Source of the DNA: an uncultured Bacteroidales bacterium
GTDB lineage: Bacteria > Bacteroidota > Bacteroidia > Bacteroidales > UBA932
Assembly (NCBI GenBank): GCA_900318355.1
Contig: ONKE01000037.1
Location: forward strand, 1-47,431
Direction of reading: 5' to 3'
DNA: 47,431 bases
Shown here one piece after another: positions 19,782 through 40,840 of this stretch. The position numbers were made by a program, and so were the translations under genes. Positions within the stretch are counted from its first letter, which is position 1. The number at the start of each line of letters is the position of its first letter. Below the pieces are notes generated by a model. It saw nothing but the letters and a program-made list of their open reading frames with translations. It was not told the origin of the DNA and did no database searches.

Positions 19782-20471
19782 ATGAAAATCCCGGATATCG
19801 TCATCGCCGTAGACGGCTATTCATCAACGGGCAAGAGCACTTTTGCCAAACTCGTCGCCAAGGAGTTCGGTTTCCTGTATCTGGATTCCGGCGCCCTGTA
19901 CCGCGGAGTGACGCTTTTCGCCCTGGAGCAGGGCCTCATAGAAGGAACCGACAAAATCAACACTTCGGCCCTGATCCCCCTTCTGGACGGGATCGACCTT
20001 CGTTTCGACGCCGAGCGCGGCACCTGCATAGGCGACCGTTGCATCGAGTCCGAGATCCGCACTTTGCGCGTTTCCAACTCCGTCAGCCCAATCGCGACGA
20101 TCCCGGCGGTGCGCAACTTCGTCGACTCCAAACTCCATGAGTTCGGACGCAGGGGCCGCATCATCATGGACGGCCGCGACATCGGCACCACCGTCTTCCC
20201 CGACGCCGAGCTCAAGATTTTCATGGTCGCCGACGACCAGGTGAGGGCCCAGCGCCGTTTCGACGAGATGGTGATGAAGGGCCAGTCGCCTGTTTTTGAG
20301 GAAGTCCTGGCCAACCTGAAAGAGCGCGACTACATCGACTCCCACCGCGAGACGTCCCCCCTCCAGAGGGCTGCCGACGCCTTCGTTATGGACAATTCCG
20401 ACATGAATCTCCATGAGGAAGTCGTGTGGATACGCGGCCTCATCCAGGGCAAATTCGGCATCCTCGGCTGA
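19782..20471 (+). CDS. cmk: Cytidylate kinase
   Basis: A 229-residue (d)CMP kinase that phosphorylates CMP and dCMP with ATP in pyrimidine nucleotide metabolism. The N-terminus has the P-loop DGYSSTGKST and the family's LYLDSGALYRGVTL. Later motifs include GRDIGTTVFPDAELKIF and the lid arginines in RAQRR. I chose ATG 19782 because the promoter's -7 box covers the upstream GTG and the family starts at this point. The stop overlaps the ispH start by one base (TGATG), so translation is likely coupled. Confidence 0.95.
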   Translation: MKIPDIVIAVDGYSSTGKSTFAKLVAKEFGFLYLDSGALYRGVTLFALEQGLIEGTDKINTSALIPLLDGIDLRFDAERGTCIGDRCIESEIRTLRVSNSVSPIATIPAVRNFVDSKLHEFGRRGRIIMDGRDIGTTVFPDAELKIFMVADDQVRAQRRFDEMVMKGQSPVFEEVLANLKERDYIDSHRETSPLQRAADAFVMDNSDMNLHEEVVWIRGLIQGKFGILG

Positions 20472-32474: not shown

Positions 32475-33200
32475 ATGGAACGCCCCCTGACCTATTTCGT
32501 CTCCGATGTCCATCTGGGGCTTGACGTCGCCAATCCTGCCGGCCGGGAGGCTCGTTTCGTATCCTTCCTGCGCGGCATCCCTGCCGAAAAAACCGATTCG
32601 CTCTACCTTCTGGGCGACATCTGGGATTTCTGGTACGAATACCGCGATGTCGTGCCCAAGGGCTATGTGAGGGTGTTTTCGGCCCTTCTGGACCTAATGG
32701 ACGCGGGGGTGAAGGTGCGTTTCTTCCCCGGCAACCACGACATCTGGTGCTACTCCTATTTCGAGGAAATGGGGATAAAGGTGCTGGCCCAGCCCTACGA
32801 GGTCACCATCGGCCGCCGCCGCTTCTGTCTGGGCCATGGCGACGGTCTCGGACGCGGAATGGGCGGCTACAAGATTCTCAAGTCCATTTTCACCTGCCGC
32901 CCCCTGCAGGTCCTCTTCAGCACCCTCCATCCCTGGCTGGCATTCCGCCTTGGCAACAACTGGTCCAAGGGCAGCCGCCTTGCCAAGAACATCCGCTACA
33001 AGTTCAAAGGCGCCGAAGAGCCTCTCTTCCGCTGGTGCGAAGACTACCGCTCCCGCCATGCCGTCGACACCTTCATCTTCGGCCACTACCACGACAGCGT
33101 CTGCATCGACATCCCCGGCGGCGCCCAACTCCGCATCCTCCAGGACTGGATCCAGTCCTCTCCCTATCTGGTCTACAACAGCCAGACGGACAGTTTTTAA
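32475..33200 (+). CDS. lpxH: UDP-2,3-diacylglucosamine diphosphatase, LpxH-like
   Basis: A 241-residue metallophosphoesterase that should cleave UDP-2,3-diacylglucosamine to lipid X in lipid A synthesis. Metal-binding motifs are all present: DVHLG near the start, GDIWD, GNHD, HGDG and GHYH. The helical insert between HGDG and GHYH is of the size seen in Bacteroidota LpxH. Its stop codon (33198-33200) is the first triplet of the left arm of the long inverted repeat that follows, so the C-terminus could have been set by that element. Confidence 0.88.
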   Translation: MERPLTYFVSDVHLGLDVANPAGREARFVSFLRGIPAEKTDSLYLLGDIWDFWYEYRDVVPKGYVRVFSALLDLMDAGVKVRFFPGNHDIWCYSYFEEMGIKVLAQPYEVTIGRRRFCLGHGDGLGRGMGGYKILKSIFTCRPLQVLFSTLHPWLAFRLGNNWSKGSRLAKNIRYKFKGAEEPLFRWCEDYRSRHAVDTFIFGHYHDSVCIDIPGGAQLRILQDWIQSSPYLVYNSQTDSF

Positions 33201-33363
33201 GTCCGGAGGGGTTCTCTCCAGGAAAACTGTGCCGCCCACGGCATCATGAGTGGGAGGGGCCCGAAAGTTCGCAGAACTTTTGGGAGGGACGGAGCGGAAG
33301 CGGGGCCCCACAGTTGTGGGGTGCTGTAGCGGAGGTTTTCAGGAGAGAACCCCTCCGGACTTA
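33198..33363. repeat. 166-bp element with 22-bp terminal inverted repeats and internal hairpins
   Basis: The ends are perfect inverted repeats of 22 bases (33198-33219 and 33342-33363). They are extended after a small bulge by GAAAAC (33222-33227) pairing with GTTTTC (33335-33340). Inside lie three further hairpins: CCCAC/GTGGG (33235-33254), AAAGTTC-GCA-GAACTTT (33264-33280) and CCCCACA-GT-TGTGGGG (33306-33321). The whole could fold as a closed multi-branch structure. The two outermost triplets are the stop codons of the convergent genes on either side. It may be a MITE or REP-like repeat, a large bidirectional terminator or a structured RNA; no transposase is nearby. Confidence 0.85.
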
Positions 33364-34089
33364 GCCTTTGCGTGATTTCCGCTTGCTTGTTTTCTTTGCG
33401 GCTTTTGGAGATTTGGCGTCGATGCGCTTGGCGATGACTTTTTCCGGCATTTTCCCGAAAACGGACCAGTAGAGGGCGTCGTATTCTCCCGTCTCCCATT
33501 TGCGGACCAGCTCTTCGGTGGCCTTGTCGAGGCCGTCGGGCTCGTAGGCGCGCTTGAGGTCGCCGTCGAACATCTTGGCGATGCCCTGCCAGAAGGCGGC
33601 CGCCGCACCGCTCTTGTAGTTTTTGATAAGGTCGTAGGGGGTTATGCCGGTTTCGCGGTCGATAAGGCGGATGAGGAGCTTGCCCTGACTTACGGTCATT
33701 TCGCGCAGAACCGGCTCATAGGCCGTCAGGAGGCCGTCCTGTATGGTGGAGATGTATTTGTCTTTCTTGCCGCGGCGAAGACCGTCGGCGGCGATGGTGC
33801 TGTCGACCTCGGCGATCAGGCGGCCGGCTTCCAGGGCGTAGGGGTACACTTTGCCGAAGTTGTGGAGGAGGCGGTATTCATCGCGCCAGTTGCGTCCGCG
33901 ATTGCGCCCGCGGGCGAAGCTGTAGGCCGGGCGGAGGGTCTCGACGTAGACGGTGTCGCCGTTGCTTATAATGTAGTGCATATAGTTTCCGCCGCGGGGC
34001 ATGCGGGTAAGGAGTTCCTGCCCTGCGGAGGTCGCCGCGGTCGCAAGGAGCGCGACGGCGCAGAAAACGTATGCTGCGAGCCTTCTCAT
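33361..34089 (-). CDS. DUF4294 family exported protein
   Basis: A 242-residue protein with a signal peptide (MRRLAAYVFCAVALLATAA to SAGQ). The mature chain matches DUF4294 of Bacteroidota (NGDTVYVETLRP, NWRDEYRLLHNFGKVYPYALEA, LIRLIDRETG, NYKSGAAAAFWQGIAKMF) and ends in a basic Lys/Arg-rich tail of about 20 residues. The function is unknown. ATG 34089 was chosen over 34098 because the promoter places the transcript start at about 34090. The stop codon (33361-33363) lies in the right arm of the inverted repeat. Confidence 0.82.
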   Translation of the reverse strand: MRRLAAYVFCAVALLATAATSAGQELLTRMPRGGNYMHYIISNGDTVYVETLRPAYSFARGRNRGRNWRDEYRLLHNFGKVYPYALEAGRLIAEVDSTIAADGLRRGKKDKYISTIQDGLLTAYEPVLREMTVSQGKLLIRLIDRETGITPYDLIKNYKSGAAAAFWQGIAKMFDGDLKRAYEPDGLDKATEELVRKWETGEYDALYWSVFGKMPEKVIAKRIDAKSPKAAKKTSKRKSRKG

Positions 34090-34095
34090 CGTTTG

Positions 34096-34128
34096 CAAAA
34101 TTACGCATTTTTCAGAGAATGTGCCAAG
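34096..34128 (-). promoter_or_regulatory. Promoter of the DUF4294 gene, implying a near-leaderless transcript
   Basis: On the minus strand TAATTTTG (34103-34096) is an exact -7 box with CTTG (34128-34125) 21 bases upstream. The transcript would begin within a few bases of the ATG at 34089. Confidence 0.55.
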
Positions 34129-38310: not shown

Positions 38311-38829
38311 ATGGCAAATACAAATGTAAAAAGAGTCAAGACCTCTGACCTCGAGCTGAAGGACAGACTGGTAGCCATCAACAGGGTAACCAAGGTTACC
38401 AAGGGTGGCCGTCATTTCCGCTTCGCAGCCATCGTTGTGGTTGGAGACGAAAACGGTGTTGTCGGCTACGGTCTCGGCAAGGCCAATGAAGTGACCGCTG
38501 CGATTCAGAAGGGTATCGAGGATGCCAAGAAGAATCTGGTCAAGATTCCGGTCATCAACAAGACCATCCCTCACGAGCAGGTCGCCAAGTTCGGCGGCGC
38601 CGAGGTTTTCATGAAGCCTGCGGCCCCCGGTACCGGTGTGAAGGCCGGTGGTGCTATGCGTGCCGTGTTCGAGTCCGTGGGCGTTCAGAACGTCCTTGCC
38701 AAGAGCAAGGGTTCTTCCAACCCTCACAACCTCGTCAAGGCCACTGTCGCCGCCCTCACCGAGATGCGCGACGCCTATACTGTCGCCGGTCTCCGTGGCG
38801 TTCCTATGACCAAGGTATTTAACGGATAG
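38311..38829 (+). CDS. rpsE: 30S ribosomal protein S5
   Basis: A 172-residue protein that contributes to decoding fidelity. [33 protein letters not shown] and [21 protein letters not shown] match the family. It is followed by rpmD after 12 bases. Confidence 0.97.
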
Positions 38830-39502: not shown

Positions 39503-40840
39503 ATGAAGAAGTTCATCGAAACGATCAAGAACATCTACAAGATCGAGGAGTTGCGCAAGAGGATAGGTTACACTCTCCTCTTGATCCTCGTCTATCGACT
39601 CGGGTGCTTTATCGTGCTCCCGGGTATCGATGCGACGCTCCTGGCCGGTCTGCAGAGCAGCACTCAGGAAGGTCTCGTAGGCCTCCTGAACATGTTCTCC
39701 GGCGGCGCCTTCGGTAACGCTTCGATCTTCGCCCTGGGTGTGATGCCCTACATCTCGGCATCCATCGTCATCCAGCTTCTGGGCATGTTCGTTCCCTATT
39801 TCCGCAAGCTTCAGATGGAAGGCGAGAGCGGTCGTCGCAAGATCAACCAGCTGACCCGCTACCTGACCATCCTCATCCTTGCGATCCAGGGTCCCGCCTA
39901 CATGGCCCAGGTTCACAACCAGCTCCCTCCGAGCGCCTTCGTGGCCGTCGGTCAGATGGGTTGGAGCAACTTCGCCTTCAACCTCGTCAGCACCATCATC
40001 CTGATGGCCGGATCGATGTTTGTGATGTGGCTCGGCGAGCGTATCACCGACCGCGGTATCGGCAACGGTATCTCCCTCATCATCATGATCGGTATCGTCG
40101 CCCGTCTGCCTTATGCGCTCACCGCTGAAATCGGCGAGAAGATGACCACCACCAACGGCGGTCTCCTCCTCCTGATTGTCGAGCTTGTGGTGCTGTTCCT
40201 CGTGTTCGTGGCCGCCATCGCCCTCGTGCAGGCTGTCCGCCGCGTTCCCGTCCAGTACGCCAAGCGCGTTGTAGGCAACCGTCAGTACGGCGGTGTCCGC
40301 CAGTACATTCCCTTGAAGATCAATGCGGCCGGCGTTATGCCTATCATCTTCGCACAGGCCCTGATGCTCTTCCCGCTCCTCTTCTCGAGGTGGGATGCCA
40401 CCCGTGGCCTCGCCGCCACCTTGGGCAACTACAAGGGATTCTGGTACAACTTTATTTTCGCAATCCTTGTCGTCATCTTCACATATTTCTACACCGCCGT
40501 CACCGTCAACCCGACCATGATGTCTGAGGATATGAAGAAGAACGGCGGCTTTATCCCTGGAGTCAAGCCCGGCAAGAAGACCGCCGAGTACCTCGACGCC
40601 ATCATGTCCCGCGTCACTCTCCCCGGTTCCATCTTCCTGGCCATCATCGCCATCCTTCCGGCATTCGCGATGATCCTCGGCGTGAGCAACTCCTTCGCGA
40701 GCTTCTACGGCGGCACCTCGCTGCTGATCCTCGTCGGTGTTGTCCTCGACACGCTCCAGCAGATTGAGAGCTACCTGCTTATGCGCCACTACGACGGTCT
40801 GATGAAGACCGGACGCCTGACAGGACGCTCGGGAATGTAA
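39503..40840 (+). CDS. secY: Preprotein translocase subunit SecY
   Basis: A 445-residue central channel of the Sec translocon with about ten membrane helices. Signatures include FSGGAFGNASIFALGVMPYISASIVIQLL (plug and helix 2), GERITDRGIGNGISLIIMIGI, RRVPVQYAKRVVG and the final LQQIESYLLMRHYDGLMKTGRLTGR. Its place within the ribosomal operon is standard. Confidence 0.97.
   Translation: MKKFIETIKNIYKIEELRKRIGYTLLLILVYRLGCFIVLPGIDATLLAGLQSSTQEGLVGLLNMFSGGAFGNASIFALGVMPYISASIVIQLLGMFVPYFRKLQMEGESGRRKINQLTRYLTILILAIQGPAYMAQVHNQLPPSAFVAVGQMGWSNFAFNLVSTIILMAGSMFVMWLGERITDRGIGNGISLIIMIGIVARLPYALTAEIGEKMTTTNGGLLLLIVELVVLFLVFVAAIALVQAVRRVPVQYAKRVVGNRQYGGVRQYIPLKINAAGVMPIIFAQALMLFPLLFSRWDATRGLAATLGNYKGFWYNFIFAILVVIFTYFYTAVTVNPTMMSEDMKKNGGFIPGVKPGKKTAEYLDAIMSRVTLPGSIFLAIIAILPAFAMILGVSNSFASFYGGTSLLILVGVVLDTLQQIESYLLMRHYDGLMKTGRLTGRSGM

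Follow-up and report, generated by a model that had tools for sequence, protein, structure and literature searches.

The window is a stretch of 47,431 nucleotides in which two convergent genes meet at a long inverted repeat. The first gene, on the forward strand at 32475..33200, is an lpxH (UDP-2,3-diacylglucosamine diphosphatase-like) gene, recognised by Pfam Metallophos and by the NCBIfam lpxH models (E 2.5e-18 and 6.4e-21, both under the curated cut-offs). The second, on the reverse strand at 33361..34098, is a DUF4294 gene (Pfam PF14127, E 3.2e-38). The element between them occupies 33198..33363, lies on the forward strand in the core-sense orientation, and has copies in its own genome. 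Its outer stem is formed by a left arm (33198..33228) and a right arm (33333..33363), which a repeat finder reported as 31 nt long and 90% complementary. The left end, TAAGTCCGGAGGGGTTCTCTCC at 33198-33219, has its exact reverse complement at 33342-33363; beyond an AG/A mismatch the stem gains six more pairs (GAAAAC 33222-33227 with GTTTTC 33335-33340), which also appear in the predicted fold. The perfect 22-bp inverted repeat with six inner pairs that the first-pass annotation had reported is therefore exact when read from the bases. The same holds for its statement that the outer ends supply the TAA stops of both convergent genes, which are found at 33198..33200 on the forward strand for lpxH, from the left arm, and at 33363-33361 on the reverse strand for the DUF4294 gene, from the right arm.

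The RNA fold of 33190-33371 has a predicted energy of -102.9 kcal/mol, against a mean of -67.1 (sd 4.4) for 200 dinucleotide shuffles, none of which was as stable (z -8.1; 0/200). The fold draws three internal hairpins, as had been claimed; comparison of copies reads the first region as two crossing stems, S1 and S2, with the second and third hairpins (P2 and P3) following, a pseudoknot that is absent from the drawing because the folding program cannot draw crossing stems. Stem S1 (33228..33246, forward strand) consists of T33228-A33246, G33229-C33245 and TGCC 33230-33233 with GGCA 33240-33243; stem S2 (33235..33254, forward strand) pairs CCCAC 33235-33239 with GTGGG 33250-33254. Since S1 and S2 cross, the loop of S1 pairing with the strand that follows it, the arrangement is an H-type pseudoknot. 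Hairpin P2 (33260..33284, forward strand) pairs CCCGAAAGTT at 33260-33269 with AACTTTTGGG at 33275-33284, and is given by alignment A2 (below) as well as by the fold. Hairpin P3 (about 33300..33327, forward strand), placed by the fold and by variation among copies, is optional and variable in length, being reduced or absent in many copies. The covariance model R1 matches the window at 33216-33290 (63.8 bits, E 1.5e-16). Weak R1 matches elsewhere in the window, at 40381-40439 (E 0.035), 38566-38640 (0.19) and 20210-20283 (0.28), are probably due to chance. The element had been described as unexplained by the gene list, and Rfam offers no explanation either: no family reached the gathering score in the window, the best sub-threshold match to the element had E 0.18, and the Rfam covariance models gave 0 matches at the gathering score in the window plus seven loci. 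Membership in an Rfam family was accordingly rejected.

The junction of the two genes was compared in relatives drawn from 29 other fetched DUF4294 loci. Both stop codons could be located in 11 relatives, and in every one of these the tails of lpxH and DUF4294 overlap, by 23-76 nt, with no R1 match; in the window genome the two gene ends are 160 nt apart, with the element between. The best explanation is that the window copy inserted at a place where, in relatives, the two genes overlap, and that its ends now provide both stops. The earlier suggestion that the insertion trimmed both genes agrees with this difference between overlap and gap. It is plausible, short of proof, because short LpxH tails occur also in loci that carry no element (L223, L224). 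None of 400 sampled congeners offered a clean, unfilled lpxH-DUF4294 site to set beside the window copy, a comparison that the first-pass annotation had proposed; the best-scoring other match was 73% identical. Among 48 other loci around lpxH or DUF4294, a single one (L217) had an R1 match at E <= 0.01. This copy (L217:1327-1399) belongs to another species and stands just past the DUF4294 3' end; lpxH was not found at this locus. The junction may have received a second, separate insertion there.

The structure of the core was derived from hand-picked sequences, near-duplicates and unusual layouts being left out. From 175 anchors, 106 were kept after removal of 20 armless, 31 low-scoring, 16 duplicate and 2 odd ones; alignment A1 holds 71 cores of these 106, and alignment A2 holds 70 cores of 93 candidates. 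The stated structure has 96.0% of its cells paired in A2, against 81.4% in shuffles, and a covariation of 0.345 against 0.113 (0/500 shuffles as high). The count of pairs with double changes likewise lies above all 500 shuffles, and registers in which the structure was slid gave 25-55% paired cells, all below the stated one. The compensatory changes that had been proposed as a check are therefore present: 184 core cells are doubly changed, a count that 0 of 500 shuffles equalled, and the arms are complementary to their own partners (below). By helix, S1 has 94.7% of cells paired, with changes on both sides in 4 of 6 pairs; S2 has 100% paired, with 53 doubly changed cells and no G-U; P2 has 94.3% paired, with changes on both sides in 5 of 8 pairs. 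One S2 pair is found as G-C in 38 cores, A-U in 19, U-A in 12 and C-G in 1, and the next as U-A in 49 and C-G in 21, the remaining three S2 pairs being invariant. Further pair types in the core showed no excess over shuffles (455/500 at least as high). Cores end in GGGAGGGAC in some copies and in GGGAGGGAT or GGGGT in others. By eye, A2 columns 14, 35 and 80 vary together, U-A tending to occur with a final C and C-G with a final U; this correlation may reflect a base triple, or it may mark a subfamily.

In contrast to the core, the arms drift in sequence and stay paired. Arm statistics cover 224 distinct elements, all preselected for having arms (score >= 9), and therefore give no armed fraction. 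An arm score of at least 14 was reached with the own partner in 175 of the 224, against 2 of 600 mismatched pairs, with medians of 17 and 6, respectively. In 212 elements the mean arm is 22 nt and 94.7% Watson-Crick, and these 212 fall into 120 arm types at a 75% similarity cut, a weak common pattern being kept beside the core. The 251 arm cells that are not Watson-Crick comprise 122 G-U, 34 A-C and 95 other mismatches (G-U versus A-C, p 8e-13, with G-U scored like any other mismatch). With one element taken per arm type, G-U is ahead in 45, A-C in 9, and 66 are ties (p 7e-7). The lean to G-U is 16 to 4 within spanning frames and 47 to 11 outside them. A process acting on double-stranded DNA treats G-U and A-C alike and a folded single strand does not; therefore selection probably acts on one strand in its folded form, as RNA or as single-stranded DNA, the G-U preference in these arms, which were chosen for pairing, fitting both equally. 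At one locus (L291; G134:C49) the left arm is apparently missing and the right arm is kept.

Complementarity might instead be kept solely by conversion of one arm by the other at the DNA level (template switching in the palindrome), with no selection of a folded strand. The arms at L140, 55 nt with one mismatch, are consistent with such conversion, and the inversions in place described below suggest recombination between arms. Conversion alone, however, predicts G-U and A-C in equal numbers where 122 and 34 are observed, and it leaves the covariation in the short internal pseudoknot unexplained; we regard it as very unlikely.

A search for copies in the genome and in relatives, proposed in the first-pass annotation, was positive in both. 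When 33190-33371 was compared with the own genome at nucleotide level (E <= 0.001), 21 matches were obtained, two of which are the arms matching each other, and thus 19 places that contain the element, the window copy included; the covariance model gave 24. The core is common to the own-genome copies and the outer arms mostly are not, though one group has similar arms. Several copies stand at contig ends, where a copy may be split or missed. Contigs C8, C22, C23, C47, C53 and C64 of this genome start or stop inside element copies; the element therefore breaks the assembly and hides copies. The same DNA query matched 24 of 41 genomes of the genus, which we infer from named relatives to be Candidatus Cryptobacteroides. 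Within the genus, model R1 matched 107 of 120 sampled genomes, each at least 90% complete; within the order it matched 7 of 393 (three of the genus, one of another genus of the family and three of other families). Both totals are minima, since the number of candidates scored in each genome was small. No copy was detected in the other 13 of the 120 congeners. Over the 120, the median is 10 copies per genome, 14 genomes have at least 30 and the maximum is at least 41; these numbers are also lower bounds, at most 42 candidates having been scored per genome. The first-pass annotation had named the absence of other copies and of compensatory changes as grounds for refutation. Both were found, and its reading of the element as either a structured RNA or a mobile element in miniature is supported.

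An exact pattern was found in at least 120 stretches of the named genome-contig collection. Among the 80 matches listed, the titles were Bacteroidales, Bacteroidia, Bacteroidaceae, Candidatus Cryptobacteroides (three loci) and one Elusimicrobium. In the last (L085, RUG13725), the flanks of a copy at ~867-1038 are identical to those around one copy on contig C8 of the window genome, and the contig is probably misbinned or mislabelled rather than a sign of a host jump, as judged from this identity. A viral carrier was rejected, one strict pattern having 0 exact matches in viral contigs. At L009:1323-1556, three tandem 78-nt units were seen, partial copies leading into a full copy.

Many copies lie inside genes. 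Of the 194 elements flanked by 400 bp or more on each side, 54 lie in a spanning frame that continues open far past both ends when they are counted by locus and strand, and 55 when each is counted on its own. Thirty spanning ORFs, the familiar-looking ones among the 55, were compared with Pfam, the other 25 being outside this count, and 30/30 matched families. Some protein names used here (AtpG, TilS, RNase R, XerC, MtaB, DapF, XseA) go further than the titles of the matched Pfam or NCBIfam models. A single Pfam domain match crosses the element in 8 cases: AtpG, TilS (L029), RNase R, XseA, two radical-SAM proteins and two MFS proteins. Domains flank the element on both sides in an MtaB-like protein, Ugd, TruB and a SpoU methylase, and a tyrosine recombinase holds two copies, again with domains on both sides. 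In-frame copies are found in conserved genes in either orientation, including those for AtpG, DapF, RNase R, TilS, XseA and HemW. Where no ORF spans the copy, 142 of 504 frames are stop-free in sense and 243 of 504 in antisense, and chance openness is therefore not small. At L276 and L308, two nearby copies of opposite orientation lie within single open frames.

The hemW gene of the window genome holds one of these copies. In 29 other hemW loci, weaker R1 matches were found in L180 (E 1.9e-9) and L168 (E 2e-4), and the remaining ones had none at E <= 0.01. The HemW loop that runs from GAHS to an RSWN/RQWN-like motif bears long in-frame inserts in other species (L168, L174 and L180); the insert of L174 has no R1 match and those of L180 and L168 weak ones, the loop being a recurrent insertion site. 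The left arm of the window genome's hemW copy (APEG) resembles host residues (SPDG) of a relative. As it could be read as host sequence, it is not certain that the arms arrive with the core every time.

Outside genes, crude longest-ORF calls place 37 of 102 intergenic copies in convergent gaps, whereas 83 of all 381 pairs of adjacent genes are convergent; the arms lie a median of 15 nt from flanking gene 3' ends. These calls also give 18 sense and 26 antisense copies within genes, and 19 sense and 36 antisense copies between genes of the same direction. A structured RNA that benefits the host and recurs at the ends of many genes, as a terminator, an attenuator or a stabiliser of 3' ends, would account for this excess in convergent gaps, for the short distance to gene 3' ends and for the strand-asymmetric pairing, and the arms in G000 and G134, which often end in A-runs and T-runs, resemble a two-way terminator. 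Such a role sits poorly with the T-run missing at the window copy, with the antisense lean between same-direction genes, with copies in conserved genes in both orientations, with copies inverted in place, and with the 13 congeners in which no copy was detected. We hold it to be unlikely, and favour a mobile element over a host function.

Mobility was viewed through static comparison of sequences. Seven G063 loci have a unit of 185-189 bp in common, arms included, and the arms are nearly constant within this burst. Some flanks are shared beyond the unit (L279 and L285 are alike over 371 bp, and L281, L283 and L284 over up to 257 bp), and not all seven are therefore independent insertions. Target-site duplications, suggested earlier as a sign to look for, were not seen on inspection of the seven copies by eye. 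Six candidate empty sites were viewed in relatives; in these the core is missing and no arm-like sequence was seen by eye, in loose alignments between conserved flanks. Pairs of orthologous sites were counted by flank identity: at 80% or more (n=27), the core is inverted in 3 pairs and points the same way in 24; at 70% or more, 11 pairs are inverted, 32 agree in direction and one is mixed. Base-level inspection covered three of the inversions. The core is reversed in L025/L100 between flanks 95% identical, 30-odd bases beside one arm being different; in L098/L234 between flanks 87-92% identical; and in L053/L312 between flanks 89% identical, with the arms changed on both sides too. Comparison of such loci shows that some orthologous copies are inverted in place.

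The differing arms could also mean that existing hairpins, for instance terminators, receive the core in their loops, the arms being host DNA, and the resemblance of APEG to SPDG in hemW would fit this. In the G063 burst, however, arms and core are shared as a unit (as are some flanks), the arms keep a weak common pattern beside the core, and the empty-site candidates, which were aligned loosely and not folded, show nothing arm-like by eye. Insertion of a bare core into a host hairpin is disfavoured as the general case because arms and core are common to the burst, hemW being ambiguous; we give this reading scarcely any credence.

For the mobilising activity, three gene classes were compared with the distribution of the element over the 120 genomes. 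Y1 transposase genes are present in 95 genomes; the element occurs in 91 of these and in 16 of the 25 Y1-negative genomes (p 8e-5, a statistic that ignores kinship), with a median of 12 copies with Y1 and 1 without. Sixteen genomes thus have copies and no detected Y1 gene. Inside the element no Y1 gene was seen; of 37 fetched Y1 loci, 1 has a copy within about 1.5 kb (0 of the first 10). Several of the fetched Y1/RAYT-like genes carry other repeats, and L338, L343 and L367 are, by eye, bordered by different repeats of their own. A Y1 (HUH) transposase that mobilises the element in trans is suggested by the co-occurrence; it is the best lead rather than a finding, because so few Y1 loci are near an element and kinship is ignored in the statistic. 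No association with the element was found for IS110 (p 0.50) or for reverse transcriptase genes (p 0.37), which are present in 41 of the 107 genomes with the element and in 7 of the 13 without it, and both spread driven by reverse transcriptase and a generic transposon load were rejected. Movement by reverse transcription of an RNA intermediate, with the machinery of a group II intron or retron, would be in line with the RNA-like look of the conserved pseudoknot and of the G-U tolerance on one strand. The distribution of these genes argues against it, as does the window genome, which has 24 model matches to the element and no RVT_1, and we judge this route most improbable.

We consider it likely that the element is a dispersed, non-autonomous, selfish palindrome of Cryptobacteroides and some other Bacteroidales, whose folded strand may be mobilised by Y1 in trans. 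The folded single strand (single-stranded DNA exposed at replication, or RNA) would be the substrate of the mobility step, a Y1 (HUH, IS200/RAYT-type) transposase would act on it in trans, and this step would keep the outer stem paired while the sequence of the stem drifts. Copies inside genes would be those that survived, being by chance open in the reading frame of the host. A broader proposal, to which we attach a low but appreciable probability, is a class of selfish nucleic acid whose unit of selection is the folded strand itself, its pseudoknotted core constant and its outer duplex free to drift, and whose mobilisation is of an undescribed kind. If this were true, the class would spread with no linked gene and no need of reverse transcriptase; it would rewrite its ends and yet keep their complementarity, flip in place, and cross conserved genes as open-frame cargo.

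To our knowledge, the mechanism by which protein-coding palindromes such as RPE spread is unsolved. In the gut Bacteroidales set the copies number in the hundreds, some relatives have a copy flipped or lack it, the structure is defined well enough for modelling, and there is a candidate enzyme class. The open-frame copies in genes of the AtpG, DapF and RNase R type are natural tests of insertion tolerance. The element also can mislead gene calls, as well as breaking assemblies.

Transposition of HUH systems (IS200/IS605, RAYT) acts on one folded strand and makes no target duplication. The element is like them in that Y1 genes co-occur with it, and unlike them in that no Y1 gene was seen inside it and only the one Y1 locus of 37 is near a copy. 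Bacterial MITEs (ERIC, Correia/NEMIS, RUP) are described in PMC2229807 as structured, non-autonomous elements of ~100-200 bp with intragenic fusions. The present element is of similar size and also structured, non-autonomous and found within genes; unlike in MITEs, its terminal inverted repeats are not constant across the family (120 arm types in 212 elements). No target-site duplication was seen by eye in the seven G063 copies. REPs, according to PMC3733652, are palindromes near gene 3' ends that sometimes give the stop codon of the neighbour, have G-T pairs in their stems, and are reported in tRNA pseudouridine synthase B and Uvr protein genes; the CGTC REPs, which consist of a CGTC tag, an 8-9 bp stem, a 4-5 nt loop and a CCA-like tail, seem to have no dedicated transposase. 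The element resembles REPs as a palindromic repeat that stands near gene 3' ends, supplies a stop codon and occurs within genes. Whereas REPs are hairpins of 20-40 bp with a tetranucleotide tag, it measures about 90-190 bp across the family, with several helices and no constant tag. Membership in the GTAG REP/RAYT group was rejected on this size and tag and on the 1/37 Y1 loci near a copy, and membership in the CGTC REPs on the core endings (GGGAGGGAC, GGGAGGGAT or GGGGT), which differ from the CGTC definition. RPE are described in PMC10969869, PMC2229807 and PMC3733652 as dispersed palindromic elements of ~105-150 bp, intergenic and also in frame within unrelated conserved genes, tRNA pseudouridine synthase B among the genes that bear them. 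The element is likewise palindromic and dispersed, and it runs in open frame through conserved genes, 30/30 of the spanning ORFs compared with Pfam matching families; it differs from RPE (Rickettsia), beside which it is set by description, in phylum, in its length of about 90-190 bp, in its H-type pseudoknot core and in its copy-specific outer stem. No description of the element was found in the literature searched, most subscription papers and preprints being outside its coverage. In kind the element resembles RPE and intragenic REPs, and it is set apart from them by its pseudoknot and its drifting outer stem.
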